This document shows, piece by piece, positions 16,345 through 40,189 of a stretch of DNA of 56,443 nt. The first letter of the stretch is position 1, and each line of letters begins with the position of its first letter. This DNA comes from Bacteroidales bacterium. GTDB taxonomy: Bacteria; Bacteroidota; Bacteroidia; Bacteroidales; UBA932. The stretch is taken from the NCBI GenBank assembly GCA_017934185.1, contig JAGBJY010000055.1, positions 1 through 56,443 on the forward strand, written 5' to 3'. A program made the translations under genes and the position numbers. Below the pieces are notes generated by a model, which had not been told where the DNA came from, ran no database searches, and saw nothing but the letters and a program-made list of their open reading frames with translations.

Positions 16345-17718
16345 TCATCCCCTCCGCTCTTCCTTGAGGGTAAGGCCCATGAAGAAGATGGCCAGCAGGC
16401 AGGCGCCCACCAGCAGGAGGAAGGTCCAGCTCCAGCCGAACTGCTGTGCCACCCAGCCGATGACGGTGTTCGCGAGGATAAAGGTTCCCAGGAAGTAGCC
16501 GAAGAAGCCGGTGAGGCCGGCAGCCGTTCCGGCGGCATTCTTGGGGGCCAGGTCCAGGGCCTGGACGCCGATGAGCATCACGGGACCGTAAATGAAGAAG
16601 CCGATGCCGATGAGGCTGATGATGACTACCGTAAGATTGTCAATGAACGCCCAGTACAGCAGCACAAACACCAGCACCAGGCCCATGAAGAGCATGGTGG
16701 GGAGGGCCCGCTTGCCGTGGAAGAGTTTGTCGGACAGCCAGCCGCAGAGGAGGGTTCCCGGGATGGCAGCAAATTCATAGGCAAAGTACGCCCAGCCGGC
16801 GCTCTTGAGGTCAATTCCCTTTTCTGTGAGGATGGTGGGGGCCCAGTCCAGACAACCGTAACGCACCATGTAAACGAAGGCATTGGCCAGGGCAATATAC
16901 CAGAGGAACTTGTTGTTCAGGACATACTGGAAGAAGATTTCGCGGGTGGTAAGGGTCTCCTCATGCTTTTCGGAGTAGTTCTTGGGATAGTCGTTGCGCC
17001 AGGCTTCTACCGAAGGGAGGCCGCAGGACTGCGGGGTGTCGCGAAGGAGAATGTAGGCCAGCAGGGCGATGAAAACGGCCACGGCGGCAGGGAAGGCAAA
17101 GGTGCCGATGAGAAAGTACAGCTCCTCATGGGCGCCGTAGAACCAGCTGCCGAACCAGATGGCGCCGTAGGTGGCCATGGGGCCCACCAGGGCACCACCC
17201 ACATTATGGGCGCAGTTCCAGATGCTCATCATGGTGCCCCGCTCACTCACCGAGAACCAGTGCGTCATCACGCGGCCGCAAGGAGGCCAGCCCATGCCGT
17301 TGAACCAGCCCACCAGGAAGTTGAGGACCCCCATTACCAGGATGGCCAGGGCCTTATGGTCGGCCCCAATCAGCTGGATGGGAACAATCATGAAGCACAT
17401 GGAAATGGCCGTGAGGATAAGGCCCAGCGGCAGGAACACGCGGGCGTTGGAACGGTCGCTCACACTGCCCATCAGGAATTTGGACAGGGCATAGGCGGCG
17501 GCGTTCAGGCCCAGGACAAAGCCCAGTTCCGTTTTCTCAAAGCCCAGCGGAGCCATGGCGGGAATGGCCATGGACAGGTTTTTGCGCACAAGGTAAAAAC
17601 CGGCATAGCCGATGAAGGCGCCCAGGAATACCTGCAGACGCATGCGCTTGTACTTGGCATCGGCCTCGGGGCCGGTCTGCGCCGGAAGATAGGGAGGTTG
17701 CTGTAAGAATTTTAGCAT
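16345..17718 (-). CDS. glpT: MFS glycerol-3-phosphate transporter, GlpT-like
   Basis: A 457-residue inner-membrane protein with about twelve hydrophobic segments. The N-terminal LQVFLGAFIGYAGFYLVRKN and the central GMGWPPCGRVMTHWFS stretch are typical of the organophosphate:phosphate antiporter family (GlpT, UhpT). It exchanges glycerol-3-phosphate for phosphate. The gene is the last of glpA-glpB-glpC-glpT, which supports G3P rather than hexose phosphate as substrate. The gap to glpC is 46 bases and holds a dispersed repeat. Confidence 0.9.
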   Translation of the reverse strand: MLKFLQQPPYLPAQTGPEADAKYKRMRLQVFLGAFIGYAGFYLVRKNLSMAIPAMAPLGFEKTELGFVLGLNAAAYALSKFLMGSVSDRSNARVFLPLGLILTAISMCFMIVPIQLIGADHKALAILVMGVLNFLVGWFNGMGWPPCGRVMTHWFSVSERGTMMSIWNCAHNVGGALVGPMATYGAIWFGSWFYGAHEELYFLIGTFAFPAAVAVFIALLAYILLRDTPQSCGLPSVEAWRNDYPKNYSEKHEETLTTREIFFQYVLNNKFLWYIALANAFVYMVRYGCLDWAPTILTEKGIDLKSAGWAYFAYEFAAIPGTLLCGWLSDKLFHGKRALPTMLFMGLVLVFVLLYWAFIDNLTVVIISLIGIGFFIYGPVMLIGVQALDLAPKNAAGTAAGLTGFFGYFLGTFILANTVIGWVAQQFGWSWTFLLLVGACLLAIFFMGLTLKEERRG

Positions 17719-17730
17719 ATTATCATCAAT

Positions 17731-17759
17731 TTAGATTCTTCACTTCGTTCAGAATGACA
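17731..17759 (-). repeat. Dispersed short repeat, copy downstream of glpC
   Basis: On the minus strand it reads TGTCATTCTGAACGAAGTGA then AGAATCTAA. It differs from the copy at 18992-19020 at only two positions. This word is a widely scattered intergenic repeat in bacterial genomes. Confidence 0.8.
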
Positions 17760-17764
17760 CTTTG

Positions 17765-18979
17765 TCAATCGGCCAAAGCTTCGGCGAGGATACTGATGGG
17801 GTTCATCACCTTGTAGCCGGTGCTCATTTCAATTTGCCATTTGCAGGTTTCGCAGTCGCAGGCCACGATGTCCGGATTCACGCTCTGAATCTGGGCAAAG
17901 AGCGGCGCGCCAATGGCCTGGGAGGCTTCGTAATTCTCTTTCTTGAAGCCGTAAGTGCCGGCAATGCCGCAGCAGGCAGAGTCCAGCACCGTGAATTCCA
18001 CGCCCGGAATCATGCGCATGAGATTCTCCGAGAACACGCCCCAGCCCAGCTTCTCCATGTGGCAGGGGGTATGGTAGGCGATTTTTTTATGATAATCGGC
18101 CTTGAATTTTAGTGTGGCGCCTTTTTCCAGCTTTTCGTAGATGAGTCGGGTAGCCATGAAAATGGCGTCGTGCACGGCCGCATTGTCCACGCCCAGCACG
18201 CCGGGGTATTCATCCCGGATGGTAAAGACGCAGGTAGAGGAGGTGGTGACCACCTTTAGCCCGGCATCCACGGCTTTTTGGAGCACCGCCACGTTGTGGT
18301 TGGCGTGTTTGGTTGCCTCTTTGGACATGCCGTTGGTAATCATGGCAATGCCGCAGCATTTTTCCTTGTCCAGCAGCTGTACGCCAATGCCCAGGGCGTT
18401 CATCACCTTCACCAGGTCTTTGCCCAACTGGGGGTAATTGTAATTCACATAGCAGCCGTGGAAATACGCCACCTGCTCCGGGAAAGCGGCCTGTTCTTTG
18501 GCCCGGCGTTTAAGCCAGCCCTCAAAACTGCGTCCGCTGTAGGCGGGGAACTGACGCCGATGGTCTATTTTCAAGGTGGCATCCAGGACCGTCTTGGTAA
18601 TGCCCAGGCCCGTTGCCACATTGGCGATGGGGGCTACGGGGCGCACCATCTTGCCCATGAAGTCTGTGGAGGCCAGGATACGGTCCCTGAGCTTGGGGTT
18701 GGACTTGTCGTATTTGATGCGGGCGGTCTGGATAAGATCGGCCACGTGCACGCCGGAAGGGCAGGCTACCTCACAGCGCTTGCAGTTGAGGCAGTATTTG
18801 AGTGCGTAATTGAAGAAGTAGGGGTCTTTCAGGCGCAGGCGCTCGCCGTCCGGACCGGCCTGCTTGGGACCGGGGTACAGCGGATTCACCTGCAGCACAG
18901 GGCAGTAGGCTGTGCACACGGTGCACTTCATGCATTCTTCAAAGTTGGCGCGGCTCTGGGTATATTCCTGTAGTTTCAT
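17765..18979 (-). CDS. glpC: Anaerobic glycerol-3-phosphate dehydrogenase subunit C
   Basis: A 404-residue iron-sulfur protein. Two 4Fe-4S ferredoxin motifs (CMKCTVCTAYCP and CLNCKRCEVACP) lie in the first 85 residues; two CCG domains follow (CCGIAMI and CCGIAGTYGF). GlpC passes electrons from GlpA/GlpB to menaquinone at the membrane. I place the start at ATG 18979 (MKLQEYTQ): the upstream alternative is a TTG at 18991 that lies inside the glpB stop region. The gene is bracketed by two direct copies of a dispersed repeat. Confidence 0.93.
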   Translation of the reverse strand: MKLQEYTQSRANFEECMKCTVCTAYCPVLQVNPLYPGPKQAGPDGERLRLKDPYFFNYALKYCLNCKRCEVACPSGVHVADLIQTARIKYDKSNPKLRDRILASTDFMGKMVRPVAPIANVATGLGITKTVLDATLKIDHRRQFPAYSGRSFEGWLKRRAKEQAAFPEQVAYFHGCYVNYNYPQLGKDLVKVMNALGIGVQLLDKEKCCGIAMITNGMSKEATKHANHNVAVLQKAVDAGLKVVTTSSTCVFTIRDEYPGVLGVDNAAVHDAIFMATRLIYEKLEKGATLKFKADYHKKIAYHTPCHMEKLGWGVFSENLMRMIPGVEFTVLDSACCGIAGTYGFKKENYEASQAIGAPLFAQIQSVNPDIVACDCETCKWQIEMSTGYKVMNPISILAEALAD

Positions 18980-18987
18980 AACGAGCT

Positions 18988-20136
18988 TCAATTAGATTCT
19001 TCGCTTCGCTCAGAATGACAGAGGATGGCATCGGCTACGGCAAGGGCGCTCCGGATGGCCAGGCCGGCGGCGCTGCCCAATTCCGGGTGGGTGACACCCA
19101 GGATGGAACCGGCGGCATAGAGGTTTTTCAGCGGCTCCCCATCGGCCACGCCGTGAAGCCGGGCGTCGGTCTTTACGCCGTAGCCCATATAGGGCTGGTC
19201 ATCGGCAAAGCTGGGGCTGTACCATCCGTTGCGGTCTTCGGGGTATTCCACATCCAGGCCGAAAACGGGCTCCCAGATGCGCTCCGGATTGGAACGGAGG
19301 CCCTTGGAGAAGAAGCTGCCGGTAGACAGCACAAAGTTATCGGCCTCCAGGTAGTGGCTGTCCAGGTTGCGTGTCACAATGCTGTGCACCATGCCGTTAT
19401 GGACGTGGGCCTCAAGGGCTTCGTCGCCCATGAGGTAGGTCCCGCCCAGCACTTCGTAGCGTTTGCGAAGCTGCATCTGGGTTCTCACGCCGGGAACAGA
19501 CGGCGGCAGGGTGCCGGCAAACACCACCTTGGCGGGGATGCCCTGGCGGATGCGGCCGGGAACGGAAGGGTCCTTGAGGCCGAAAACCTGCGGAAGCACT
19601 ACGGTGTCGTCGTCTTTGAGGAGCACGCGGATTTCCTGCACCACCTTCTCCCAGATGCGGTCCATGGTGCGGGCAATCTGCACCGAGCGCATTTCGCTGG
19701 GGCTCTGGAGCAGCTGCTCCATCTCCGGCAGGTTCAAAAAGCGTATCCGGCATTCCATGCCCTGCTTCTCCAGCCCTTCGGAGAGGAAGGAGGAGAAGAA
19801 GTCGTGGTAGCCCATGAAGTTCACAATAAGCACCCGTCGGCCAAAATGCGCGTCCGGGAAAATATCCACATCCTCCAGGCAAAGGGCCGATGGCTGGAAA
19901 GTGCCCATGGGCATCAGCCGTACGCCCTGCCCGTAATGCAGGCGGATGCCGGCCTCTTCGATGAGCTCCTTGATGCGCGGAGTGGGCTCCTGAAGGCTCT
20001 CGAAGGTGCCGGAGAAGAAATGCAGGGCATTCTGTCCGGTAGAGATGATGGCCGTTTTCTGTCCGGCCTTCTGGAGGGCGATGCCTGCGACCATGCCGGC
20101 AAGGCCTCCGCCAATAATTATTGTGTCAAACTTCAT
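18988..20136 (-). CDS. glpB: Anaerobic glycerol-3-phosphate dehydrogenase subunit B
   Basis: A 382-residue flavoprotein subunit. FAD-binding motif IIIGGGLAGMVAGIALQKAG near residues 6-25; C-terminal second nucleotide-binding region with YAAGSILGVTHPELGSAAG. It links GlpA to GlpC. The start codon overlaps the glpA stop (ATGA). The last ten residues, CHSERSEESN, are encoded by the dispersed repeat at 18992-19020, so the natural C-terminus has been replaced or extended by repeat sequence. Confidence 0.92.
   Translation of the reverse strand: MKFDTIIIGGGLAGMVAGIALQKAGQKTAIISTGQNALHFFSGTFESLQEPTPRIKELIEEAGIRLHYGQGVRLMPMGTFQPSALCLEDVDIFPDAHFGRRVLIVNFMGYHDFFSSFLSEGLEKQGMECRIRFLNLPEMEQLLQSPSEMRSVQIARTMDRIWEKVVQEIRVLLKDDDTVVLPQVFGLKDPSVPGRIRQGIPAKVVFAGTLPPSVPGVRTQMQLRKRYEVLGGTYLMGDEALEAHVHNGMVHSIVTRNLDSHYLEADNFVLSTGSFFSKGLRSNPERIWEPVFGLDVEYPEDRNGWYSPSFADDQPYMGYGVKTDARLHGVADGEPLKNLYAAGSILGVTHPELGSAAGLAIRSALAVADAILCHSERSEESN
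18992..19020 (-). repeat. Dispersed short repeat inside the 3' end of glpB
   Basis: On the minus strand it reads TGTCATTCTGAGCGAAGCGA then AGAATCTAA. It encodes the HSERSEESN tail of glpB, and the glpB stop follows at its end. Together with the copy at 17731-17759 it flanks glpC in direct orientation. Confidence 0.85.
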
Positions 20137-21728
20137 ACGCCCAAAACGTGTTTATAAACCCACTGCGTATATTCCGCTTCGCGGAGGGTATCGCCCCAGC
20201 CGATGGGGAAATTGCCCTTCCAGCGCTCCTGGAGGAAGTCGTTGAGGTCGGCCCGCTCGCGCGCTATGCAGCCGTGGGCTTTGGCCAGGAGGCCGGCGGC
20301 CCGGCAGGCGCAGAACTCGCCCTGGCAGGTGCCCATGCCCACGCGGGTGCGGCGGCGAAGGTCTGTGAGGGTGCTCACTTCCATACGCTCAATGGCGGCA
20401 TTGATTTCGCCCACCGACACTTCTTCGCACTCGCAGATGAGGGCTTCGTCGCGGCGGTCGCCGGTGCGGATGCGGGAGGCACGGGTGCCCATGCGGGCAG
20501 CGGCCGCCTTCTGTGCAGTGGAAGGGGATTCCCAGATTTTCTGGGCCACGGCTTCGTAGGATCGTTCCTCGGAGCCGGGAAGGGGAGTGGTGGCCGTTTC
20601 GCAAGCCTTGTCCACGCCCAGTTTGCGGCAAACGCAGTCCGTGGCCATTTCGGCCATGAGCCTGTAAGTCATGAGCTTACCGCCGGTAATGGTGACAAAG
20701 CCCTTGAGGCCGTCACGGGTCTCATGGTCCAGGCACACGATGCCGCGGGAGATGTTGCGGCCGGAAGGGTCGTTGTCGGCACTCACCAACGGACGCACCC
20801 CGGCGTAAGCCCTGAGGATGCGGGTGGAGGAAAGGGACGGTGCCAGGAGGGACCCCTCGCTGATGAGCAGGTTCACCTCGTCGGGGGTTACGGCTACCTC
20901 GTCGCACTCTTCAAACGGAATGCGTGTAGAGGTGGTGCCGATGATGCATACCGTGTCCCCGGGTACCAGAATATCGGCATTGGAAGGCTTTCGGCAGCGG
21001 TTGATTACCATGTTGTTCACCCGGTGGGCAAAGATGAGGAGGGCGCCTTTGGCAGGGAACATGCCCACCTGCACGCCGGCCATCTGGGCGATATTGTGCC
21101 CCCAGATGCCGCCGGCGTTTACCACCACTGAAGCGTAGTAGTCTTTCTCCTCGCCGGTAGCGCGGCTGCGGGTATGCACCCCCTTGATGGTGTCCCCCTC
21201 GCGGATGAATCCGGTTACGTCCGTGTGCAGGCGCACCTGCCCTCCGCGCAGCTTGGCATCCAGCATATTGGCAGCGCACAGGCGGAAGGGGTCCACGCTG
21301 CCGTCCGGCACCTTCACCGCGCCGATGAGGGCGGGGTTCACCGAAGGCTCCAGCCGCCGGGCCAGGTCCGGGTCGATGATTTCGGCATTGATACCGGCCG
21401 CCTGGCAAGACTGCACGAAGGTTTGCTGGTAGGCAAGGTCGTCTTCCGGGAGGGTGATGAAAAGGCCGTCCGTCTCGTCGATGCAATGCGCGGCGATGCG
21501 CCTGAGGATCATATTCTCCTCAATGCATTCGCGGGCCGATTCGGGGTCGTTCACCGCATACCGGGCCCCGGAGTGCAGCAGACCGTGGTTCCGGCCCGTT
21601 GCACCCGTTGCGATATCGGATTTTTCAATGAGCAGCGTCCTGAGGCCCCGCATGGCGCAGTCCCGCTGCGTCCCGGCCCCCGTAATGCCGCCGCCAATGA
21701 TGATAACGTCGAATTCGTCAGGATTCAT
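20133..21728 (-). CDS. glpA: Anaerobic glycerol-3-phosphate dehydrogenase subunit A
   Basis: A 531-residue flavoprotein. N-terminal FAD motif FDVIIIGGGITGAGTQRDCA, then the G3P oxidase fold (GLLHSGARYAVNDPE, AGGIWGHNIAQMAG), and a C-terminal BFD-like [2Fe-2S] domain with cysteines in CECEE and CQGEFCACR. It oxidises sn-glycerol-3-phosphate to dihydroxyacetone phosphate under anaerobic conditions. The start at 21728 (MNPDEFD) follows a good promoter at 21747-21777; the longer frame upstream runs into the repeat array and is rejected. First gene of the glpABC-T operon. Confidence 0.95.
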   Translation of the reverse strand: MNPDEFDVIIIGGGITGAGTQRDCAMRGLRTLLIEKSDIATGATGRNHGLLHSGARYAVNDPESARECIEENMILRRIAAHCIDETDGLFITLPEDDLAYQQTFVQSCQAAGINAEIIDPDLARRLEPSVNPALIGAVKVPDGSVDPFRLCAANMLDAKLRGGQVRLHTDVTGFIREGDTIKGVHTRSRATGEEKDYYASVVVNAGGIWGHNIAQMAGVQVGMFPAKGALLIFAHRVNNMVINRCRKPSNADILVPGDTVCIIGTTSTRIPFEECDEVAVTPDEVNLLISEGSLLAPSLSSTRILRAYAGVRPLVSADNDPSGRNISRGIVCLDHETRDGLKGFVTITGGKLMTYRLMAEMATDCVCRKLGVDKACETATTPLPGSEERSYEAVAQKIWESPSTAQKAAAARMGTRASRIRTGDRRDEALICECEEVSVGEINAAIERMEVSTLTDLRRRTRVGMGTCQGEFCACRAAGLLAKAHGCIARERADLNDFLQERWKGNFPIGWGDTLREAEYTQWVYKHVLGV

Positions 21729-21746
21729 GGTATTAGTAATAGTACA

Positions 21747-21929: not shown

Positions 21930-21975
21930 CAAAACGAAAGCGCCCGGTGTCCGGAAAGCCGGGGCACCAGGCGCT
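21930..21975 (-). terminator. Terminator of the phosphoesterase-SusC-SusD-lipoprotein operon
   Basis: On the minus strand GCGCCTGGTG (21974 to 21965) pairs over 10 bases with CACCGGGCGC (21949 to 21940), followed by TTTCGTTTT. It lies 20 bases after the stop at 21997. Confidence 0.75.
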
Positions 21976-21996: not shown

Positions 21997-24900
21997 TTAA
22001 TCGGCAGTGAACGTGATGTCAATTCCTCCACCGATTCGGGTGGTTCCACCATGTTCCAGGCCGTTAAGCTCTTTGCTCAAGTTGCAGCAAAGGTTGTCGC
22101 TCACTCTGGCCCTTACGTAAATGACCTGGCGACCGGAGAGGGCGGGAGCCTTCATGCTGGCATTCACTTCGCAGGTGACATTGTTTCCGCTGATCATGTA
22201 AGTATAGGTTACTTCGCGGGCTGTTTCGGGTTTATCTTTCACCTGGAAAGTCCCCTTTTGTGCCTGTATAGGATACCAGGTGGTCTGGTCCAGGGAATAT
22301 TCCAACAGGAAGAACTTGGGCCCCGCATTGGACGATGTCGCCTTGTAGGAGATGCTGTATGTTCCTGCCTGCTGGTCCTTCACAGGAAGAGTGAAGAGCC
22401 AGTAGTCGCCTAAACCAACACCGGTGGAGAGGATACGGGTAAAGTTGCCTTCCGTGCTGAAAGTAAGTGTGGTAGGGGCGCTTCGTTCGCCGGGACGCAC
22501 CAGGTCCAGACGGGATACGCCGTCATCGGCATAGAGGTACACATTGGGCCAGGTGATGCCGTAATCTACACCAGCCGTAAGCGCAGAGGGATCCCCGAAG
22601 GACCATTTGATGGGCAGAGCGCTCACGGGAGGCTCAGGTTCAGCAATGGTGATCTTCGGACCGTCGTCTTTACCTCCCGCCCAGCGGTGGGTGCCGCCGT
22701 TGGGTGCCGCCAGGGCGCCACCCTTCTGCTGCCAGTTGGCCACGCAGGTGAAGCGGATCTGCACCGTAGCTTCAGGGATGGCAATAGGAGCCGTGATGCT
22801 GGCCTCTACCTTGGTGTCGGAAGTAGTGGCAAACTCATGGGTGTATTTGGCCTCCGTTCCGGTGAGCGTCTCGGTCTTGAGTTCGGCGGCAGGATACCAG
22901 TTGTTTCCATCGATAGAGTAATCCATCCTCCAGAAACGGTGGCCCGTGCCGGAAACCTTAGACAGGGCAGAGAAGCTGATAACCGAGCCCTTGGCCACAT
23001 CTTTCACCGGGAAGGTGAACAGCCAGTAGTCACCGGGCCATGCGCCGGTTACGTAAGGCTGGCCGGTGCCGCCGATTACCTGACTCTTCTTGTTTCCTGT
23101 ATCGGCTGCTACATTTTCCGGCAGGTTGTGCCAGGAGAGTACGCCGGAGCCGGCGATATTAGCCTTGAAGGCGTTGTCCTTTTCAAAAGCGTCCTTGTAT
23201 TGGTCCATAAGCGTGGCATCAAAGCCCCACTGGATAAGCGTGTTATCAAGGATAACTTCCTTGCCGGCCTGCTCAACGGTAAGGACAGCTTCCACGTTCT
23301 TCTCTTCGTTGAAGAAGCGGATGGTGCCGGTGCGGGGTGCCTCGCTCTCGTTGGCTTCGTAGCTCACTACGAAATTGGTCCACTCCACCATGGCTTTGGT
23401 CTCGGCCGGGGCTACGTTAATCCAGGCGTCCGCGGTTTCAAAGCTCACTTCTACATTGGCCTGCACCTTCACATCGGCCTTTCCTTGATCAGCATCCACT
23501 TTAAGGACATTGCCGGAAGCGAGGCTCACAAACGGATCCAGCTCCTGTCCGGCGGCTCCCTGGATAACGGGAATCTCCTTGCGGGTAATACCGGATTTAA
23601 CGACAATCAGGCCCTCCCGATTCTCGGAGGACTTGCTTTCATCCACCGTAACCGCCATCTCAATGGATTCTGCGGCCTCTGCCGTTGCCTTTTCAAAATG
23701 GATCCATCCCTGCTCGGAAGACAGGGTTACATCTTGGTCGGAAGAGATATGGAGCACTTTCTGGGCGGGCTTGAGACCGTTAAACAGAAGATAGCTTTCC
23801 TTGACCACCAGGGCGGCAGGCTTGAGCGTTTCGGTACCGGCTGCGATGCAGCTGATCGTGGGCTGGAACTCATCGTCGGCATTATTGGACGAATCTACAG
23901 ACAAGCGCCAGGTACCGCCGTTGGGTGCGGCCAGAGGTCCGGCACCGGATGCCTGTTCACGGGATGCGCATATGAAGCGGAATTCCACCTGATCGGTATT
24001 ATTTTCATACAGGGCTACGCCTTCCACCTTGATGTTGGTGGAACCGTCGTCTGCCATGGTATGGGTATAACGGACCAGTTCGTCGCCGGCGCCCTTGGCG
24101 GCCGGATCTGATAGTTCCTTCCCTGCTACTTTCCACTGTTCTCCGTCACGGAATTCAAGACGCCAGTGTTTGGGACCTGTCTTGGAAACGCGGGTGGCAA
24201 AGGTGAGTTTGATGATGGTTCCGGCCGATACCGGTGTAGAGGCTACGAATTCACAGTAGTCCCCTGGCCAGGGGCCGGTTACGCGGGGCGAGTTGTCGGA
24301 CACGTCCAGCAGGCACTTTCCTGCCGAATCAGCGGATAGGCCCGCAGCATTGTTATAGTGGATATAACCATTCCCGCTCACGGGCTCGATGGTTCCGTTG
24401 GCCGGGAAAGTGGCGGCATAGGTGTTGGGATTGATTCTCACCTGCCACTTCACCGGGAAGCCTTCCAGCTCGGCCTCAACGGCCGGGTACTGGGTGATGG
24501 GAATCAACTCCTTCTTTTGGGCTCCGTCCTGGGTATAGCTGATGACGATATTGGCTCCGCGAAGTCCGCCTTCATTGGCCGCAAGTCTGAGCTTCAAGGT
24601 ATCAATCTGCTTGGTGGCCTCGTGGACGGAGTTGTCGGTGATCCATTGGATATCGGCCGTTCCATAATCCTCCATGGGCTGCAGTTCATAAGTCCAGTCC
24701 ACATTGGCCAGGACGCGCAACTTCAGGTTCTGGGCCGTAGCGCCGGCACTGAACTTGGCATCGCTCAACTCTATGAACGGGGCACTGGCCACCTGTTTGA
24801 CGGTAATCATGCCTTCCACCGGCTCGTAACCTGAGCCGCGGTCTACCAGAAGGTTGAAGTATGCCTCACGCTGCTCTGTAAGGCTGATGTTGCGGGTGCT

Positions 24901-25293: not shown

Positions 25294-25306
25294 GATGGCT
25301 CACTTT

Positions 25307-32164: not shown

Positions 32165-32182
32165 GTGTTACAAATTTCAAAT

Positions 32183-32210
32183 CAAAGTTAGCGTTTTTTT
32201 ACTAACTTTG
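32183..32210. promoter_or_regulatory. Palindromic divergent promoter between the two phosphoesterase operons
   Basis: TCAAAGTTAG (32182-32191) and CTAACTTTGA (32202-32211) form a perfect inverted repeat. Each arm is a TAACTTTG -7 box facing outward: minus box 32190 to 32183 for the gene at 32164, plus box 32203-32210 for the gene at 32228. No -33 is clear. One regulator bound here could control both operons. Confidence 0.65.
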
Positions 32211-32227
32211 AATCAGATTTTTAAAAA

Positions 32228-33307
32228 ATGATGATAAAACGGTTCTACTTCTGCGTATTCTTGTGTTTTCTATGCGTCTTTTCTTTGCAGGCGCAGCAGT
32301 ACAAATACGTTCAGGCTTCCTCCCTTACCCTTGTGGGAAAGCTTTTCCCGGACACCCCCAATCCTTATCATCGGCTGGATACTTGCCGCTTCAAAGGCTT
32401 CACCAAGGCAGAGAACCTGCAGGTGCGGGAATCCGCCGGCATTGCGGTGGCCTTTAGCACCAACAGTGCCGTCATTCGCGTACGGACGCTTTTTGGCCAG
32501 ATGCAGACGCCGGTGAACACCACGGGCATCAGCGCCTACGGCTATGACCTTTATATCAAAAAGGACGGGCAGTGGCTCTGGGCCGGTGCCGCCGGGCAGA
32601 ACAAGAAGGAGAGCGAGGTAACGGTGGTGGCCGATTTGGACGGCAGCCCGCATGAGTGCCTTCTGTACCTGCCGCTTTTCAGCGAGCCCCTTTCGGTGGA
32701 AGTGGGGGTGGAGGAAAACGCCACCGTGGAGGCCCTGCCCCTGCCTTTCCGCCACCGCATCGGCATTTTTGGCTCCAGCTTCACCCATGGCACCAGCACC
32801 TCCCGCGGCGGCATGACCTATCCGGCCCAGCTGAGCCGGGCAACGGGGCTGCAACTGCTGAGCCTCGGCTGCAGCGGCAACTGCAAAATGCAGCCCTACT
32901 TTGCTGCCGCCCTGGAAGCGGCCGATGTTGACGCCTTCCTCTTTGACACCTTCTCCAACCCTTCGGAGGCCACGATCAAGGAGCGCCTTTTCCCCTTCAT
33001 CGAGCGCATGACAAAGGCCCATCCGGGCAAGCCGCTCATTTTCCAGCGCACCATTTACCGCGAAAACCGCAATTTCAACACCGCATCGGCCCATAAGGAG
33101 AGCTCCCGCATTGCGCTGGCAGACAGCCTGATGAATGAGGCCATGCACCGTTATCCGGACGTTTACTACATCTGCCCCAGTGCCACCTCGCCCAGCCATG
33201 AAACCTCCGTGGACGGCATCCATCCGGGCGATTATGGCTATACGCTGTGGGCCCAATCCATCCAGGGCGCCGTGTCGGCCATTTTAAGAAAATATGGAAT
33301 CCAGTAA
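32228..33307 (+). CDS. SGNH/GDSL hydrolase with N-terminal GxDLY domain
   Basis: A 359-residue secreted esterase. Signal peptide to residue 22 (CVFSLQAQ). The N-terminal beta domain holds SAYGYDLYI, the GxDLY motif. The SGNH core has FGSSFTHG with probable nucleophile Ser184, LGCSGNCK (oxyanion glycine), and DGIHPGDYG with Asp329 and His332. Members cleave acyl or acetyl esters on lipids and sugars. Next to a phosphodiesterase fusion (1 base away), it could deacylate lysophospholipids or remove D-alanyl esters from teichoic acid; this is inference. Confidence 0.88.
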   Translation: MMIKRFYFCVFLCFLCVFSLQAQQYKYVQASSLTLVGKLFPDTPNPYHRLDTCRFKGFTKAENLQVRESAGIAVAFSTNSAVIRVRTLFGQMQTPVNTTGISAYGYDLYIKKDGQWLWAGAAGQNKKESEVTVVADLDGSPHECLLYLPLFSEPLSVEVGVEENATVEALPLPFRHRIGIFGSSFTHGTSTSRGGMTYPAQLSRATGLQLLSLGCSGNCKMQPYFAAALEAADVDAFLFDTFSNPSEATIKERLFPFIERMTKAHPGKPLIFQRTIYRENRNFNTASAHKESSRIALADSLMNEAMHRYPDVYYICPSATSPSHETSVDGIHPGDYGYTLWAQSIQGAVSAILRKYGIQ

Positions 33308-33308
33308 T

Positions 33309-35567
33309 ATGAAAAAGTTAGTTCTTCTTCTGGCCCTTTGTCTGGCCATGGTGCCCGTTGAGGCAAAAAAGGTAAAAGGACGCGTATCCTCCGAAGGTGC
33401 TCCGCTTTCCGGAGTAGTGGTAAGTGACGGTTATCGCTTCACCAAAACCGGGGCCGACGGCCGTTTCTCCCTGAACACGCACAAAGACGCCCGCTTTGTC
33501 TTTGTCATCACCCCTTCGGGCTATGTGGCCGATTTTTCCACGGGCGCCCCGCAGTTCTATCTGCCCATCAAAGGGACAAAAAGCTTTGATTTTGCGCTGA
33601 ATAAGTTCTCGGAGGGAGACGATTACACCCTCTTTTCCGTCTCCGACCCCCAGATGCAGAACAAAAAGCACCTGAAACGCTTCCTGGGGCGCCCCCTGGG
33701 CGACCTTCGCGGCATGGCGCGCCGCTTCAGCGCCCAGCGCCAGACCGTGGGCATTGCCCTGGGCGACATTGCCTGGAACAAGCACTGGGTGTTTGACTCC
33801 TATAAAGAGGGCATTGCCACCACCGGCATCCCGTTCTACGCCGTTATCGGCAACCATGATTTTATCCAGAATCTGGACGGCATTGCCGCCGGAGCAGGGT
33901 ACGAAGCGGCTTTCGGCCCTTATAATTACGCCTTTTGGCTTGGGAAGGACCTTGTTATCGGCCTTAACGACATCCTTTTCAAGGGAAACGGCACCGATGA
34001 TGCGGAAAAGAGCTCCAATAATTATACGGAGGGCTATTCAGAAGAGGCGCTGGGCTTTGTGGAAGGCCTTTTGAAGTACGTTCCCAAAGGCACCCACCTT
34101 TATGTTGCGCAGCACAGCCCCATCCGTTTCGTGCACGAAAACAAGTCCAACGATATTGAAGGGGCGGCCCGGCTGCTCGCCCTCCTGGAAGGATACACCG
34201 TGGACATCCTTTCCGGCCACACGCACATCATGAACAAGGTGCGGGTGAGCGACACGGTGGTAGACAACAACGCCGCCGCCATCGGCGGAGCCTGGTGGGC
34301 CACCGACTGGTGCCGGGACGGTTCCCCGCGCGGTTACGAGATTATTTCTTCCGTGGGCGGCGTGCGCAGCTGGCGCTGGCACAACCTGGACTATCCGGAC
34401 GACTTCCAGGTAGAGTTTGTGGGCATGGACCAGGCTTTCCGCCACCCCAACAGCGTACTGGCCAATGCCTGGGGGGCCGATGACAGCTGGACCTGCACCT
34501 GGACGGAGGACGGGCGCGAAATGGGCTCCCTGGAGCGCCAGAGCGACTATTCCACCAGTTACGGCAAAGAGATTCTGGGCGTTTACCAGGGCGACTTCTC
34601 CAAGATTCCGGGCTACAAACGCCCCAACGCCCAGCGCCACTATTTTGTGGCTACGCCTTCCCAGTATGCCCAGACGGTGACCATGACGGTACTGGCCCCG
34701 GACGGCCGCAGCTGGAGCCATACCTTCGACCTCAGAAACAGCTACATTGACCTTCAGGCGCACCGGGGCGGAGCCGGCCTCATGCCGGAGAACACCTTCT
34801 CTTCCATGCGTAACGCCATGGACCTGCACGTGAACACCCTGGAGTTCGACCTTCAGCTCAGTGCCGACAAGAAGGTGGTGGTGTCGCACGACAATTACTT
34901 CCACCCGCGCTATTCCATGCGTCCGGACAGCACCCTGGTGCAGAAGGAAGACCCCAAGGAGTACCTGTACACCATGCCCTATGACAGCATTGCCAAGTAC
35001 GATGTGGGGCTTCGTTTTGTAGACCGCTGGCCCACGCAGAAAAAGGTCTCTGAGCACAAGCCGCTGGCCACCGACCTCATTGACTTCACGGAGCAGTATG
35101 CCCGCGAGAACGGCCTGTCGCCTTTCCGTTACAATATCGAGATAAAATCCCGCACCGGAGCGGGCGAGGGCACGCTATGGCCGGACTATAAGGAGTTCTG
35201 CGACAAGTGCATGGAGCTGCTTCTTTCCAAGCATTTGGGAGACCGCCTGGTGGTGCAGACCTTCGATGTGCGGGCCCTGGAGTACATCCACGCAAAGTAT
35301 CCCCAGGTAGAGCTCTCTTACCTTACGGAGGACGAGACAGAGATCGCTGCCATCCTTTCCCAGATTTCCTTTACGCCCCGCTGGTGGAGCCCCAACCATG
35401 AGGTGATTACCCGCGAGAACGTGGCCTACTGCCATGCCCTGGGCATCAAGGTGGTTCCCTGGACGGTAGATAAAGAAGATGACATCGCCCGCATGGTTTC
35501 CTGCGGCGTCGATGCCATCATCTCCAATTATCCGGACCGCCTGATAAAGCTGGTCCGCAAGTACTAG
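33309..35567 (+). CDS. Fusion of calcineurin-like phosphoesterase and glycerophosphodiester phosphodiesterase
   Basis: A 752-residue secreted protein (signal peptide ending VEA). Residues 20-100: MetallophosN-type domain. Residues 105-340: metallophosphoesterase with SDPQ, GDIAWN, GNHD (181-184), AQHSP and GHTH (His304, His306). Residues 345-475: MetallophosC-type domain. Residues 482-750: GDPD TIM barrel with HRGG (His485), E512 and D514 in LEFDL, and His527 in SHD. GDPD releases glycerol-3-phosphate from glycerophosphodiesters; the phosphoesterase could then give glycerol plus phosphate. ATG 33309 fits the signal peptide; an ATG at 33294 would overlap the esterase gene by 14 bases. Confidence 0.9.
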   Translation: MKKLVLLLALCLAMVPVEAKKVKGRVSSEGAPLSGVVVSDGYRFTKTGADGRFSLNTHKDARFVFVITPSGYVADFSTGAPQFYLPIKGTKSFDFALNKFSEGDDYTLFSVSDPQMQNKKHLKRFLGRPLGDLRGMARRFSAQRQTVGIALGDIAWNKHWVFDSYKEGIATTGIPFYAVIGNHDFIQNLDGIAAGAGYEAAFGPYNYAFWLGKDLVIGLNDILFKGNGTDDAEKSSNNYTEGYSEEALGFVEGLLKYVPKGTHLYVAQHSPIRFVHENKSNDIEGAARLLALLEGYTVDILSGHTHIMNKVRVSDTVVDNNAAAIGGAWWATDWCRDGSPRGYEIISSVGGVRSWRWHNLDYPDDFQVEFVGMDQAFRHPNSVLANAWGADDSWTCTWTEDGREMGSLERQSDYSTSYGKEILGVYQGDFSKIPGYKRPNAQRHYFVATPSQYAQTVTMTVLAPDGRSWSHTFDLRNSYIDLQAHRGGAGLMPENTFSSMRNAMDLHVNTLEFDLQLSADKKVVVSHDNYFHPRYSMRPDSTLVQKEDPKEYLYTMPYDSIAKYDVGLRFVDRWPTQKKVSEHKPLATDLIDFTEQYARENGLSPFRYNIEIKSRTGAGEGTLWPDYKEFCDKCMELLLSKHLGDRLVVQTFDVRALEYIHAKYPQVELSYLTEDETEIAAILSQISFTPRWWSPNHEVITRENVAYCHALGIKVVPWTVDKEDDIARMVSCGVDAIISNYPDRLIKLVRKY

Positions 35568-36301
35568 AATACCAGCAGATACAGTCCTGCAGCGATTGCG
35601 GCTCCCACAAGGGGGCCGCATACTGGTACCCAGCTGTAGCTCCACATGCTGTCGCGCTTGCCTTCAATGGGCAGCACGGCGTGGGCGCAGCGGGGGCTCA
35701 GGTCGCGGGCCGGGTTCAGGGCATAACCGGTGGTTCCGCCCAGGGACATGCCGATTGACATGATAAGGCAGGTCACGGGCCAGGAGCCGATGGCGCCGGT
35801 CTGGGCCGTCACAGGACCCACCTGGAAGGCGTTTCCGCTGAAGCCCAGGGCCAGAATTACAAACACCAGGAGGCAGGTGGCAATGACTTCGCAGAGGAAG
35901 TTGCGGTAGGGATTGGCAATGGCCGGGGCCGTGCAGAAGGTGCCCAGGATGGTGTCGGGCTCACTGGCCGTAGCTTTGTAATGGTCTTTGTAGAACACCC
36001 AGACCAGGGAGGCGCCCACAAAACCGCCCAGCATCTGGGCCACAATGTAGCCGCAGACGGAAGCCCAGGGGAAGGTGCCGGCAATGGCAAGACCCAGGGT
36101 GACGGCGGGGTTCAGATGGGCTCCGGAAACGGGGCCTGCAATGAGCACACCCATCATCACGGCCAGGCCCCAGCCCAGGGCGATGACCACCCAGCCTGCG
36201 CCTTTGGCCTTGGATTTATTGAGGGAGGTGGCGGCGCACACGCCGTCGCCCAGAAGCACCAGCACCAGCGTGCCGATAAATTCAAAAATGTATTGGTTCA
36301 T
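35564..36301 (-). CDS. glpF: Glycerol facilitator (aquaglyceroporin)
   Basis: A 245-residue inner-membrane channel of the MIP family. The two half-helix motifs are SGAHLNPAVT (about residue 66) and ALNPARDLSPR (about 200); the second, with Asp after Arg, is the aquaglyceroporin form. It lets glycerol into the cytoplasm. It starts 2 bases after the glpK stop and its 3' end overlaps the fused phosphodiesterase gene by 4 bases on the opposite strand. Confidence 0.94.
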   Translation of the reverse strand: MNQYIFEFIGTLVLVLLGDGVCAATSLNKSKAKGAGWVVIALGWGLAVMMGVLIAGPVSGAHLNPAVTLGLAIAGTFPWASVCGYIVAQMLGGFVGASLVWVFYKDHYKATASEPDTILGTFCTAPAIANPYRNFLCEVIATCLLVFVILALGFSGNAFQVGPVTAQTGAIGSWPVTCLIMSIGMSLGGTTGYALNPARDLSPRCAHAVLPIEGKRDSMWSYSWVPVCGPLVGAAIAAGLYLLVF

Positions 36302-36303
36302 AA

Positions 36304-37785
36304 TTACTTATTTACGGTGCGTCCAATGGCATCGGCCCAGCCGGCTTTGGCGGGGGCCATGTCTTCGGTGGTAGGAGAGAAAGTTCTTTCGGCCTTCCAC
36401 TGCTGCTTGATTTCGTCTAAGGAGTTCCAGTAGCCAACGGCCAGGCCTGCCAGGTAGGCGGCGCCCATGGCGGTGGTTTCGGTGACCTCCGGACGGATGA
36501 CCTGGGAGCCCAGGATATCGGCCTGGAACTGCATCATGAGGTTGTTGCGGGAAGCACCGCCGTCCACTTTGAGTTCGGCCAGGCGCACGCCGGCGTCTTT
36601 TTCCATGGCCCCTACAATGTCCATGGTCTGGAAAGCGATGCCTTCCAGGGCTGCACGGGCAATGTGGGCCGCCGTGGTGCCGCGGGTGATGCCGCAGATA
36701 ACCCCGTGGGCGTACTGGTCCCAGTAGGGGGCGCCCATGCCGGTGAGGGCGGGGACAAAGTACACGCCGCCACTATCCGGAACGCTGGCTGCCAGAGCCT
36801 CAATCTCGGAGGAACTCCGGATGATGCCCAGGCCGTCGCGGAGCCACTGCACCACGCTGCCGCCCACGAAGATGGAGCCTTCCAGGGCGTAATTCACGGT
36901 GTCGCCGATCTTCCAGGCAATGGTAGTGAGGAGGTTGTTGCGGGAAAGGATGGGCTTCTCTCCGGTGTTCATCAGGAGGAAGCATCCCGTGCCGTAGGTG
37001 TTTTTCACGGCGCCGGGCTCCGTGCACATCTGCCCGAAGAGGGCGGCCTGCTGGTCTCCGGCAATGCCGGCGATGGGCACTTCATGCGCAAAGATGGTGG
37101 TCTTGGTGTGGCCGTACACCTCCGAGGAGGAACGCACGGACGGCATCATACTTTCCGGGATGCTCAGCAGTTGCAGCAGCTCCTTGTCCCACTGTAAAGT
37201 GTTGATGTTGAAGAGCATGGTGCGGGAAGCGTTGGAGACGTCGGTGATGTGCACCTCGCCGCGGGTGAGCTTCCACACCAGATAGCTGTCCACGGTGCCA
37301 AAGCGCAGTTTCCCGGCCTCGGCTTTCTCGCGGGCCCCTTCCACGTTGTCCAGAATCCATTTAATCTTGGTGCCGGAGAAATAGGCGTCGATGATAAGGC
37401 CGGTCTTTTCGCGGATTTTCTCCACCCAGCCATCGGCCTTTAACTGGTCGCAATAGGCCGATGTACGGCGGTCCTGCCACACGATGGCGTTGTACACGGG
37501 CTGGCCGGTTTCTGCGTCCCACACGATGGTGGTTTCCCGCTGGTTGGTGATGCCGATACCGGCAATGTCCGGGCCGCCGATGCCCATCTTGGAGATGGCT
37601 TCGGCAATGACGGCAGCCTCCGAGCCCCAGATTTCGTTGGGGTCGTGCTCCACCCAGCCGGGCTGGGGGAAGTGCTGCGTGAACTCCTGCTGCGCCACGG
37701 AGCAAATGCGGCCCTCGTGGTCAAAAACAATAGCCCTGGAGGAGCTGGTTCCTTGATCCAGGGCTAGAATGTACTTGTTAACCAT
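36304..37785 (-). CDS. glpK: Glycerol kinase
   Basis: A 493-residue FGGY kinase. Motifs: [16 protein letters not shown] at residues 6-21, [12 protein letters not shown] near 80, [27 protein letters not shown] and [16 protein letters not shown]. It phosphorylates glycerol to sn-glycerol-3-phosphate and traps it. I use ATG 37785 (MVNKYIL), which follows the hydrolase stop by 1 base; an ATG at 37797 would overlap that gene. Part of the operon OMP, hydrolase, glpK, glpF. Confidence 0.96.
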
Positions 37786-37786
37786 A

Positions 37787-38791
37787 CTATTTGACATATC
37801 CACAGGGTGCGCCTTCCGGGTAGTTCCCCACGGCAATCATGTTACGGACCGTCTTGAGGAAGTTGGACACCTTGTAGGTGTACTCCTCAGGGTATTTGGC
37901 GTAGGAATTGGCATGGACGGCGCCGGGGGCCACCCAGTACTCCTTATAGCCCTGCTTCTTGGCATTGTAGTTCTCCCAGAGGTGCTCAAACGGGACAAAG
38001 TCGTCGGCGTCTCCGTGGATAAACAGCATGGGCTTTACGCACTTGGCCAGCTGCGGGCGGCAGTCGGCATCCTTGAACTTCCAGCCGAACTCTTTTCCGG
38101 AAACAATGCCGGCGCTGGTAATGATGGCGTTGGGAAGGAGCTTGGACATGTCGTCCAGGTTCTTCTTGAACTGGTCGGTCACCGAGCAGTATCCGCAGTC
38201 TTCCACGAAGCACTTCACGTAATCCGGAAGGGCTTCGCCGCTGGTCATCATGACGGTGGCGGCGCCCATGGATACGCCGTGCAGGACCATAAAGTCGTCC
38301 TTGAAGAGGCCGTGGGCCACCTCAATCCATTTCATTACATCCAGGCGGTCTTTCCAGCCCATCTGGATTTCGTCGCCCTCTGAGTAGCCGTGATACTGGA
38401 GGTCCGGGAACAGGACGTTGTAGTTGAACTGGTCCCGGTACATGCGTACCAGATAGAGGAACACATAGTGGTTGTCGCCGTAACCGTGGACCACGATAGC
38501 GGTACCCTGGGCGTTTGCGGGGTCTGCGGCGGGCACGGAGCAGGCGTGCAGCTTGAGGCCTTCGTCATTGGTAATCCAATGGTCTTTCAGGACGCCCTGG
38601 GCTTTGAGGTTGTCGTACCACTGGGTGCTGCCGGGCATCAGGGAATCGGCCTTGTGGCGGGTGCGCTCGATATCGGCCTCCCCGTGTACGGAGGGGGTGA
38701 TGGCATAATGGGCCATGAACTTGCCGGCAAGGCAGGAATTGAGGCTCAGGGCCATGAGGCCGATGGCGGCCATGTTAAGAAGCTTTCTCAT
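37787..38791 (-). CDS. Lipoprotein alpha/beta hydrolase (BEM46/lysophospholipase-like)
   Basis: A 334-residue lipoprotein (ALSLNSC, cysteine at residue 20). The alpha/beta hydrolase core has [11 protein letters not shown] (oxyanion region), the nucleophile elbow [18 protein letters not shown] (acid Asp) and a final His in APGAVHANS. This group includes lysophospholipases, monoacylglycerol lipases and serine aminopeptidase-like esterases. It is 1 base from glpK and 6 bases from the outer membrane protein gene. The tight link to glpK and glpF supports release of glycerol from a lipid ester, but the substrate is not proven. Confidence 0.87.
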
Positions 38792-38797
38792 AGGGCA

Positions 38798-40189
38798 TTA
38801 GAACTGATAGTTGATGCCGATGCCAATCCACAGACCGGCGTCCAGACCCGGAGTGAAGCACTTGGCAAGTTCGGCCGATATGATGAAGTTCTGGTTCATG
38901 GCTATCTTCAGACCGGCACCTGCGCTGTAGATGAGTTTGTTGATGTTGGAGGCATCATAGATGAGCGAAGAGCTCTGGCCCAGAAGCGGGTTTTCGAGCT
39001 TGAGGTCGTAGAGTTTATTGTCGTTCAGTACATTGGCAAGTTCGGCCGTGCGGTACCCCTTGGTGATGATACCTGCGTCGAAGAACGGGTTCAGGGCAAT
39101 GTAGAAGAACTGGTTGAAGAGCTTGAAGTTCACAAGCTTGACGCGGAGTTCCAGGTTGGCCCATGCCATGCCCTCGGCCAGGATACGGTTTTCACGCAGG
39201 CCGCGGATGGTGTTGGAAGAGCCGAAGCCCTCGGAAATCATGTTGCGCTGAACCAGGAGCGGCACGTTCTGGATCATGTAGAACGGTGTTTCACCGGCAA
39301 TGGTCTGCTGCCAGGCCAGGCGGTATGCGAACACAGGGTCTCCGGCGGGAATGTGGATGGGAATGTCAATGTAATGACGGAAGTAAACGCAGGCCTTGAG
39401 GTACTTCTGCTGGAGGAGGTTGCCGTTGAGGTAGGCCTCGGCCCAGATACCCTTGCTGGGAGCGGCTTCAATGTCACGGGTGTCATAGACAAGTCCGGCG
39501 TTGACTTCAAGGGCCAGGCCGCCGTTGGCCTCAGAGTCCTTCACAAGGCCCAGCGCCTTGTAGGTGTCAAACAGGGTGAGGTCGGTGTCGTAATAGCTCT
39601 TCTGCTTGGTTTCCTTGTTGATGACCACGCCGTTGTCGCGCATGTTGCCAAGTCTCCACCACCAGAAATTGACGCCTGCGGCCCAGTTCAGGTGCGGGAC
39701 AATCTGGCCCTGGAAGTTGGCCAGTACACGGAGCATGTCGCGGCTCATGCCATAGTAGTTCACGTTGTTGCCGTTGGCCAGGGTGAGCTTCCTGCTGGAC
39801 CAGACATCATAATTCTGGACGGCTGCCGGTCCGTTATAGCCCCAGAAGGTGTACAGGGGGTCTCCTACATAAGTAACGGAAGCGTTTACACGCATTTTGG
39901 GGATAAGATACTTGGAGTCGTATGCCAGGTAAAAACGCATACGGTGGCTGTGGGTGAAATAGGAGCCTTCCCAGCTGATTTTATGGAGGGGATCGGGATA
40001 AGTGGAGCCGTCACCATAATAATAGACGTCGCCAAAGGCGCCGGCCTGGAAACCGTTGTCAACGGAATAAGTGGCCGTAGGGAGAAGGCCAAAGCTCCAG
40101 CCCTTCTTCACTTCCTTTTCTTTTTCTTCCTGGGCAAACAGACTTGCGCATACTGTGAGCAGTACGGCAATCAGGGTAAATTTTTTCAT
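38798..40189 (-). CDS. Outer membrane beta-barrel protein, BamA/surface-antigen C-terminal type
   Basis: A 463-residue protein with a signal peptide (MKKFTLIAVLLTVCASLFAQ). The mature part is made of barrel strands, with GLALEVNAGLVYDTRDIEAAP and GFGSSNTIRGLRENRILA, which resemble the VYDTRD and VRGY/F.eNR motifs of Omp85/BamA-type barrels; it ends ...LWIGIGINYQF. No POTRA repeats are present at the N-terminus, so it is a barrel-only member. Related proteins export or insert surface proteins, or join to patatin lipases. First gene of the operon with the hydrolase, glpK and glpF. Confidence 0.82.
   Translation of the reverse strand: MKKFTLIAVLLTVCASLFAQEEKEKEVKKGWSFGLLPTATYSVDNGFQAGAFGDVYYYGDGSTYPDPLHKISWEGSYFTHSHRMRFYLAYDSKYLIPKMRVNASVTYVGDPLYTFWGYNGPAAVQNYDVWSSRKLTLANGNNVNYYGMSRDMLRVLANFQGQIVPHLNWAAGVNFWWWRLGNMRDNGVVINKETKQKSYYDTDLTLFDTYKALGLVKDSEANGGLALEVNAGLVYDTRDIEAAPSKGIWAEAYLNGNLLQQKYLKACVYFRHYIDIPIHIPAGDPVFAYRLAWQQTIAGETPFYMIQNVPLLVQRNMISEGFGSSNTIRGLRENRILAEGMAWANLELRVKLVNFKLFNQFFYIALNPFFDAGIITKGYRTAELANVLNDNKLYDLKLENPLLGQSSSLIYDASNINKLIYSAGAGLKIAMNQNFIISAELAKCFTPGLDAGLWIGIGINYQF

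Follow-up and report, generated by a model that had tools for sequence, protein, structure and literature searches.

The window analyzed here is a 56,443-nucleotide stretch of contig JAGBJY010000055.1 (positions 1 to 56,443) of a Bacteroidales bacterium (GenBank assembly GCA_017934185.1). It harbors a SusC/SusD pair, a calcineurin-like metallophosphoesterase lipoprotein (hereafter MPE), a putative surface glycan-binding protein (SGBP, a BACON-domain lipoprotein), an SGNH esterase, a metallophosphoesterase-GDPD protein (hereafter the fusion) and the glp genes for sn-glycerol-3-phosphate (G3P) and glycerol. The whole set is likely to be a catabolic locus for glycerol-phosphate-containing material, laid out like a polysaccharide utilization locus (PUL). 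Its SusC/D, phosphoesterase, esterase, GDPD and glp parts probably constitute one feeding system, since such parts stay side by side in both close and distant relatives. A preliminary description of the sequence had already joined these operons into one system and named conserved synteny in relatives as the check. When this check was run, the operons were found to co-occur near and far, though not phylum-wide; one-strand runs in another order, together with a Hymenobacter plasmid, back the proposal. The same claim is corroborated by the GDPD tree, in which the stand-alone GDPDs of glp operons lie among the fused ones. The substrate part of that description did not stand in the same way: the hints lean to a teichoic-acid-like polymer, but those provided by glycosidases are weak.

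Conservation of the gene set in near and distant relatives

The association was quantified on 62 groups of loci carrying a fusion-type phosphoesterase (clustered at 97%, window included), drawn from the fetched loci, which are a subset of all matches; L001 and L026, being pieces of the window, were dropped. The controls were 236 central genes from 40 regions of 20 kb, placed at round coordinates on long contigs of relatives, and the radius was five genes. The open reading frames (ORFs) were obtained with an amino-acid-composition caller that misses some genes (e.g., GDPD and glpK of L119, found by tblastn), some contigs end early, and the later phylum draw and the comparisons that followed it are outside this count. 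SusC was found in 30/62 loci vs. 9/236 controls and SusD in 30/62 vs. 5/236 (Fisher p 5.6e-19). The other partners were absent from all 236 controls: glpT in 11 of the 62 groups (Fisher p 1.5e-8), a second MPE in 22, SGNH in nine, glpD, glpF and glpK in four each, and NAGLU in one. Because related loci are not independent, the count was also made at 70% clustering (35 groups), which gave 10 groups for glpT, 17 for SusD, 4 for GH31 and 1 for glpF. Since glpF is found in a single group at this level, the adjacency of glpF-glpK to the fusion belongs to one clade; the adjacency of glpT and of SusCD recurs.

The neighborhoods of family members show how the two gene sets are combined. In nine fetched relatives (L025, L055, L056, L071, L073, L074, L082, L119 and L122), glpT and glpF are separated by 21 to 162 bases and enclose no other query gene (gaps measured between tblastn matches; the glpT of L082 is of a more distant type), and in five of these (L025, L055, L056, L119 and L122) a stand-alone GDPD is located between glpC and glpT. 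In the window and in the contigs of three relatives (L005 with L066, L006 with L070, and L017/L069), the block formed by MPE-SusC-SusD-SGBP and SGNH-MPE-GDPD is embedded exactly between glpT and glpF, the glpABCT block of the window being inverted relative to that of the three relatives. More distant family members (L051, L062, L063, L171 and L175) harbor glpD-glpT-MPE-SusC-SusD on one strand, and in L051 the run continues with an MPE-GDPD fusion, an SGBP and a GDSL esterase. The assignment of GlpD is based on PF01266 and PF16901 matches in L051 and L171 and on NCBIfam in L051 and L175; the gene is in two ORFs in L062 and is cut by the fetched stretch in L063. In L180, glpD-glpT-SusC-SusD lie on one strand, and L109 shows the order MPE-SusC-SusD-SGBP-MPE-glpT (glpT 91%), with an SGNH gene four genes further on. 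Full-length GlpT orthologs, 83-95% identical, are present in 11 of the 21 relatives searched, and a 12th has a split copy.

The search was extended to 395 genomes drawn from the phylum, with a threshold of E 1e-60 or better for MPE. An MPE-type phosphoesterase was found in 31 of them, and a GDPD beside it in three (G885, G927 and G943), all from one family of another order of the same class; a SusD of the window's type is near MPE in these three and in G394. The most complete arrangement is that of G927, where the end of glpK, glpF, GDPD, SusC, SusD, MPE, GDPD, glpT and a GDSL esterase all share the same strand and, starting at glpF, neighboring genes are 2 to 87 bases apart. This run comprises nearly the whole set of the window, minus the BACON lipoprotein, glpABC, the hydrolase and Omp85. 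Its GlpT is above the TIGR00712 cut-off (744 bits), and its SusC, SusD, MPE and second GDPD are 34, 31, 30-31 and 42% identical to those of the window. The order is SusC-SusD-514-aa ORF-MPE-GDPD-GDSL in G943 and MPE-GDPD-GDSL, with SusD 1.7 kb upstream, in G885; glpK-glpF-MPE are adjacent on a 4.4-kb piece of G1056 (L199), from a further family of the class. Finally, a plasmid of Hymenobacter radiodurans (class Cytophagia according to NCBI) carries SusC-SusD-calcineurin-like phosphoesterase-GDPD, whose products are 36, 28, 29-30 and 40% identical to the proteins of the window. Closer to the window, phosphoesterase relatives from other families of its order (L165-L168) are accompanied by SusCD in 2/4 cases and by glp genes in 0/4. 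A draw of 393 genomes of the order (best two candidates each) yielded a single other genome matching the fusion at E 1e-90 or better, and it belongs to the same genus as the window.

The history of the GDPD domain was explored with a FastTree phylogeny that comprises 58 domains (L119 is not among them) and takes the only Hymenobacter sequence as its root. The stand-alone GDPDs of glp operons (L025, L054, L055, L056 and L122) branch within the fused forms, and stand-alone GDPDs from elsewhere (L046, L120 and L121) group with them. The support of this branch is 0.58 and that of the node joining it to the window's clade plus L088 is 0.98. A second group devoid of the phosphoesterase half of the fusion (L060, L061, L123 and L124) is also placed among fused forms (support 0.76). 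This topology would be explained most simply by a fused gene that shed its phosphoesterase half and then settled between glpC and glpT, although other histories would fit such moderate supports as well. The genome of the window possesses two further GDPDs besides the fusion. One of them, the stand-alone GDPD of L046 (contig C49), 76% identical to the domain of the fusion, lies near a contig end in surroundings that include lipoprotein genes and an AAA-ATPase-like gene.

The importer itself appears to be exchangeable. The nearest relatives, whose fusion is 82-83% identical to that of the window, have this slot occupied by a SusC/D pair of another kind, the SusC being about 24% identical to that of the window (window 26912-30196 vs. 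L005:3459-6854). The SusD of this second type belongs to PF07980 in L048 vs. PF12771 in the window. The SusCs closest to that of the window among the fetched loci are those of L012 (75%) and L095 (67%). This looks like an importer swap, in which the SusC/D pair would change as the enzymes and the glp genes stay.

Candidate substrates and rival explanations

In the proposed mechanism, the surface phosphoesterase would make the first cut in a substituted glycerophosphodiester polymer or oligomer, whose pieces would be bound and imported by SGBP and SusCD. The SGNH esterase would remove ester substituents, the GDPD would release G3P, and the phosphoesterase domains would deal with whatever phosphodiester or phosphomonoester bonds are left. 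G3P would enter via GlpT and be oxidized by GlpABC. Free glycerol would enter metabolism via GlpF and GlpK; it would stem from the other enantiomer or from esters that the alpha/beta hydrolase has cleaved. The likeliest substrate might be glycerol-phosphate teichoic acid or a similar polymer of Gram-positive neighbors, and glycerol-phosphate teichoic acid proper is advanced as a tentative candidate. It is also conceivable, with some reserve, that uncultured rumen-type Bacteroidales eat Gram-positive teichoic acids by a dedicated Sus-like locus, with swappable SusC/D pairs tuning it to different teichoic acids. Surface cleavage would then be followed by SusCD import, ester removal, release of G3P by GDPD and its direct oxidation; some relatives would additionally strip off alpha-glycosyl or phosphocholine groups.

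Several features bear on a teichoic acid substrate. In the available part of PMC7086022, the GlpQ of Bacillus subtilis works as an exo-enzyme that is halted by glycerol units bearing D-alanine or glucose, and PhoD as an endo-enzyme; wall teichoic acid (WTA) is built of Gro3P and lipoteichoic acid (LTA) of Gro1P, the two being enantiomers. The stop at substituents and the two enantiomers would explain the presence of an esterase and of both the G3P and the glycerol branches. A locus for WTA/LTA-type polymers would accordingly need an esterase, endo- and exo-phosphodiesterases, routes for G3P and glycerol and, sometimes, alpha-glycosidases. Of these, the esterase, two phosphoesterase domains, a GDPD and both routes are present in the window; in the other order, MPE-GDPD is again accompanied by an esterase, of the GDSL type. 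Moreover, the combination of a lipoprotein MPE with a non-lipoprotein fusion suggests a polymer. Related loci add GH31 in 7/62 groups and GH89 in 1/62; a protein of L103 weakly matches the pneumococcal teichoic acid phosphorylcholine esterase (full-sequence E 1e-6, the best stretch of 85 residues failing alone), with a homolog in L105 by clustering (two loci). A phosphodiester glycosidase is present in one locus (L117), and sulfatase-superfamily genes are present in relatives.

A number of observations weigh against this picture. No GDPD is near MPE in 28 of the 31 phylum-draw genomes having MPE, and 16 of the 20 short phylum loci show no query gene within about 1.5 kb of the phosphoesterase. 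Because of these bare loci, and of a GDPD standing beside the phosphoesterase in so few genomes, the glycerol-phosphate gene set, though recurrent, cannot be called general in the phylum. Among the 62 groups, 32 have no SusC within five genes (some contigs being short), and at 70% clustering glpF/glpK stand beside the fusion in only 1/35 groups. MPE is not glycerol-specific, since relatives of it belong to SusCD loci whose fetched stretch has no glp genes (L064, L065, L167, L168, L177 and L179). As for the polymer, neither the window's locus nor the G927 run contains a glycosidase, and the enrichment of GH31 is weak (7/62 vs. 7/236, Fisher p 0.012). The window has a GH31 of the same type (56% identical to that of L048), and it stands beside a starch-type GH13 gene. 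GH89 relatives are present in 97 of 215 genomes of the genus, and one was seen beside the module only in G107. In addition, the GDSL esterase would also suit lipid-derived substrates.

Two lines of argument were set aside. The glycosidase partners were dropped as a proof of teichoic acid degradation, GH31 being weakly enriched and GH89 widespread in the genus. The specificity of GH31 does not decide the substrate either: among solved structures its nearest relative is 7wj9, which is mentioned a single time, in the part consulted, in a paper on a nigerose-specific GH31 alpha-1,3-glucosidase (PMC9061262).

The first alternative to be weighed is the scavenging of small glycerophosphodiesters or lysophospholipids (e.g., the deacylated phospholipids glycerophosphoethanolamine, -glycerol, -choline and -inositol; GPE, GPG, GPC and GPI), in which phosphate might be the prize and glycerol a by-product. 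GDPDs classically cut small glycerophosphodiesters, and the GDSL/SGNH esterases by MPE-GDPD, like the alpha/beta hydrolase and Omp85 of the glpFK operon, could act on lipids. A parallel would be the Pus loci of Flavobacterium: in the excerpts of PMC8115612, their SusCD genes are accompanied by phosphoesterases, calcineurin-like (pf00149) and others, and phosphate depletion induces these loci. However, the coupled genes of the present loci are carbon-catabolic (glpABC or glpD, glpK). Furthermore, DeoR-type regulators (PF08220, PF00455; best NCBIfam model AgaR, below its cut-off), not Pho genes, flank such operons in L062, L100, L171 and L180, although no Pho-box search was made. Small diesters pass porins, and both SusCD and an SGBP of 1098 aa would be needless for them. 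This scavenging is rather doubtful as the role of the locus, and small glycerophosphodiesters or lysolipids may likewise be regarded as a rather doubtful substrate.

It is less probable still that SusCD-MPE forms a PUL for a phosphodiester-decorated glycan (e.g., a capsule or cell-wall glycan bearing glycerol-phosphate or phosphosugar groups) and that the glp genes mop up glycerol phosphate formed on the side. Such an unlikely arrangement would account for the GH31, GH89, GH127, GH3, phosphodiester glycosidase and sulfatase-superfamily genes carried by relatives and for the MPE homologs in SusCD loci devoid of glp genes. It is at variance with the lack of glycosidases in the window's locus and in the G927 run, with GH31 or NAGLU being within five genes in only 7/62 groups, and with the presence of glpD or glpT in the same-strand run of several relatives. 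Lastly, an ordinary glycan PUL inserted by chance beside a housekeeping glp cassette is very improbable: the genome of the window has about 20 SusC genes above cut-off and nine relatives have a glp cassette with no SusCD between its halves, but the enrichment over control regions and the G927 run strongly disfavor chance, the association being repeated independently, in other gene orders and in another order of the class, with GDPDs common to both modules.

Organization and expression signals of the locus

The genome hosting the window has a size of 2.13 Mb, is 86% complete and is split into 62 contigs. Its closest named relatives are metagenome-assembled genomes of uncultured Bacteroidales or Bacteroidia, several of which are labelled rumen or forestomach. 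All the genes named by the preliminary description were recovered at about the same positions by Pfam/NCBIfam profile matches (Table 1). The start it had assigned to glpA was moved from 21932 to about 21728, as the TIGR03377 match begins at residue 75 of the ORF; the latter is open to 21932 and its probable start is the ATG at 21728. For the fusion, the internal ATG at 33309 is the likely start.

Table 1. Genes and regulatory features of the locus, with their positions on the window.
Feature	Position	Strand	Basis and remarks
glpT, glycerol-3-phosphate transporter (MFS)	16345..17718	-	PF07690; TIGR00712 572 bits, below cut-off 633
glpC, anaerobic G3P dehydrogenase subunit C	17765..18991	-	TIGR03379 594 bits
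glpB, anaerobic G3P dehydrogenase subunit B	18988..20136	-	TIGR03378 320 bits
glpA, anaerobic G3P dehydrogenase subunit A	20133..21728	-	TIGR03377 778 bits
Terminator-like hairpin, between SGBP gene and glpA	21943..21955	-	consensus scan, sequence
BACON lipoprotein, 1098 aa, putative SGBP	21997..25293	-	PF13004
SusD-like lipoprotein (SusD-like_2)	25307..26905	-	PF12771 E 8.9e-75; 26 distinct PDB sequences matched
SusC-like TonB-dependent transporter	26912..30196	-	TIGR04056 601 bits; Pfam
MPE lipoprotein	30221..32164	-	PF16371, PF16370; lipobox; motif residues invariant, 19 sequences
Inverted repeat TCAAAGTTAG-N10-CTAACTTTGA, TAnnTTTG box on each strand	32182..32211	.	sequence
SGNH esterase	32228..33307	+	PF14607, PF14606; signal peptide, no lipobox; closest PDB sequence 4lhs, uncharacterized
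MPE-GDPD fusion	33294..35567	+	PF16371, PF00149, PF16370, PF03009; signal peptide, no lipobox
glpF, glycerol facilitator (MIP)	35564..36301	-	PF00230; TIGR00861 above cut-off
glpK, glycerol kinase	36304..37836	-	TIGR01311 746 bits
Alpha/beta hydrolase lipoprotein (esterase or lipase-like)	37787..38791	-	PF12146, PF00561; lipobox by eye
Omp85-family outer-membrane protein	38798..40189	-	NF047779 235 bits, cut-off 200; ORF open to 40222

MPE, SusC, SusD and the BACON lipoprotein, followed by glpA, glpB, glpC and glpT, run leftwards on the minus strand from a gap of 63 bp, from which the SGNH esterase and the fusion depart on the plus strand. The latter pair converges with glpF-glpK-alpha/beta hydrolase-Omp85. 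GlpA, GlpB, GlpC and GlpK are above the cut-off of their equivalog models, GlpT is below its own, and GlpF is assigned to a MIP subfamily model only. The Pfam search gave no match for the Omp85-family protein. The three related modules of the BACON lipoprotein were judged by eye. The search of PDB sequences returned no match for MPE and none for SGBP; the sequence closest to the fusion is 3ch0, a GDPD. The quartet glpF-glpK-alpha/beta hydrolase lipoprotein-Omp85 (35564-40222) is found in the same order in 12 other fetched loci (L004, L005, L006, L018, L025, L056, L071, L073, L074, L082, L085 and L122), with SusCD present or not.

A single eight-gene operon spanning MPE to glpT, all on one strand, was considered and rejected in view of the later glpA start and of the terminator-like hairpin. 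A TAnnTTTG box, a promoter element of Bacteroidota, is present upstream of glpA; this box and the hairpin at 21955-21943 suggest that the SusC/D genes and glpABCT may be two transcripts. Overall, the consensus scan for terminators hardly exceeds its shuffles (24 sites vs. 20.4). The MPE and SGNH genes diverge from the 63-bp gap, which holds a perfect 10-nt inverted repeat whose 9-nt core pattern has a single occurrence in the window and none in 100 shuffles; the repeat and its two boxes are a probable shared divergent promoter. In the corresponding gap of 10 relatives, both boxes are found at the window's spacing in L009 only, and both but positioned elsewhere in L006 and L013. The plus-strand box alone occurs in L020, L021, L022 and L023, and neither in L005, L017 and L069 (the last two being one contig).

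Lipoprotein signals were detected in the window's MPE, SusD, BACON protein and alpha/beta hydrolase. A strict lipobox pattern matched 11 of 19 MPEs, the signal peptide of the other eight ending with a cysteine (by eye). It matched none of nine SGNH proteins and one among 22 fusions (L015), outside the signal peptide. In the BACON protein, the pattern chose the first of two cysteines, the second (CRVKEDD) appearing better by eye. Acidic residues after the lipobox cysteine are part of a surface-export signal of Bacteroidota, and they follow the cysteine in MPE and the second cysteine in the BACON protein. The SGNH esterase, having a signal peptide without lipobox, is presumably periplasmic. Candidate metal ligands are invariant in both phosphoesterases (alignments of 19 MPEs and 22 fusions), as are the HR/E/D/H residues of GDPD across the 22 fusions and a serine, an aspartate and a histidine across the nine SGNH proteins; we take these positions to have metal-ligand or catalytic roles. 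In the fusion's phosphoesterase, D-x-Q is found where the lipoprotein MPE has D-x-H. The HR/E/D/H set is also named among the catalytic residues of GlpQ in the available part of PMC7086022.

Comparison with known systems and neighboring genes

The locus shares with the PULs of Bacteroidota a SusC/SusD pair, a binding lipoprotein, a lipoprotein first-cut enzyme, exported trimming enzymes and a dedicated inner-membrane uptake; unlike them, it has phosphoesterases, GDPD and esterase instead of glycosidases, and its downstream pathway is that of the glp genes. SusC and SusD are adjacent, the BACON lipoprotein and MPE are in line with them, and the esterase and the fusion are divergent. No glycoside hydrolase or polysaccharide lyase is present among the Pfam matches of the genes at 16345-40222, so that the locus lies outside a strict PUL definition.

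The E. coli glp regulon contains GlpT, GlpQ, GlpABC and GlpFK. It resembles the locus in GDPD, in G3P uptake and oxidation and in glycerol uptake and kinase; in the window, however, the glp genes are joined to SusCD and lipoproteins. With the GlpQ and PhoD teichoicases of B. subtilis (PMC7086022), the locus shares a GDPD-type enzyme and a second phosphodiesterase, a combination that could in principle degrade poly(glycerol phosphate); in the window, however, the GDPD forms one protein with a calcineurin-like domain and would receive its substrate through an outer-membrane importer. In Flavobacterium, according to the portion of PMC8115612 considered, Pus loci place a SusCD-like complex with calcineurin-like and other phosphodiesterases (one pf00149 protein is Fjoh_4172) and respond to phosphate depletion. 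The window's locus has SusCD with phosphatase or phosphodiesterase genes, as in the definition given there. Nevertheless, Pus is defined by Pi-depletion induction, and here GDPD and a complete G3P/glycerol catabolism are added. SusC/D loci with phosphoesterases are thus already known, and GDPD plus complete glp catabolism are what differ here. Among the table entries of PMC10434189 for B. thetaiotaomicron are SusC/D BT4724-25 and a GDPD (BT4727), as well as an alpha-N-acetylglucosaminidase with SusC/D (BT0438-40) and a calcineurin-like protein within BT0446-49. No description of a teichoic-acid- or GDPD-linked SusCD locus was found among the listed titles and abstract starts of open-licence PMC papers, a collection from which most preprints and subscription journals are missing.

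A SusCD system is usually taken, almost automatically, for a glycan importer; the recurring GDPD/glp-linked SusCD suggests that for some of them the cargo may be glycerol-phosphate compounds, used as a carbon source. Were the substrate teichoic acid, a defined route would exist for Bacteroidota to feed on Gram-positive cell walls. The combination of a PF16371/PF16370 phosphoesterase, GDPD and GlpT or GlpD beside SusCD might represent a marker set for re-annotating PULs.

Other arrangements of the same families can be observed. L064, L065 and L179 represent another SusCD locus type, having a phosphoesterase of about 1080 aa and further conserved genes, with no glp genes in the stretch. The neighborhood of L117 contains SusC, phosphoesterases, GH127, a phosphodiester glycosidase (PF09992), SGNH and GH3. 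Within the window, GH31 and GH13 (cyclomaltodextrinase-like) genes lie to the left of the glycerol-phosphate locus (3319-7672) and a SusC-SusD-SusE/F-type operon with a CBM48 stretch lies to its right (48480-56113); these flanking genes are probably starch utilization genes. At 10191-12977, a xylose-isomerase-like TIM-barrel protein is encoded beside an FGGY kinase, the two being perhaps a sugar isomerase-kinase pair.

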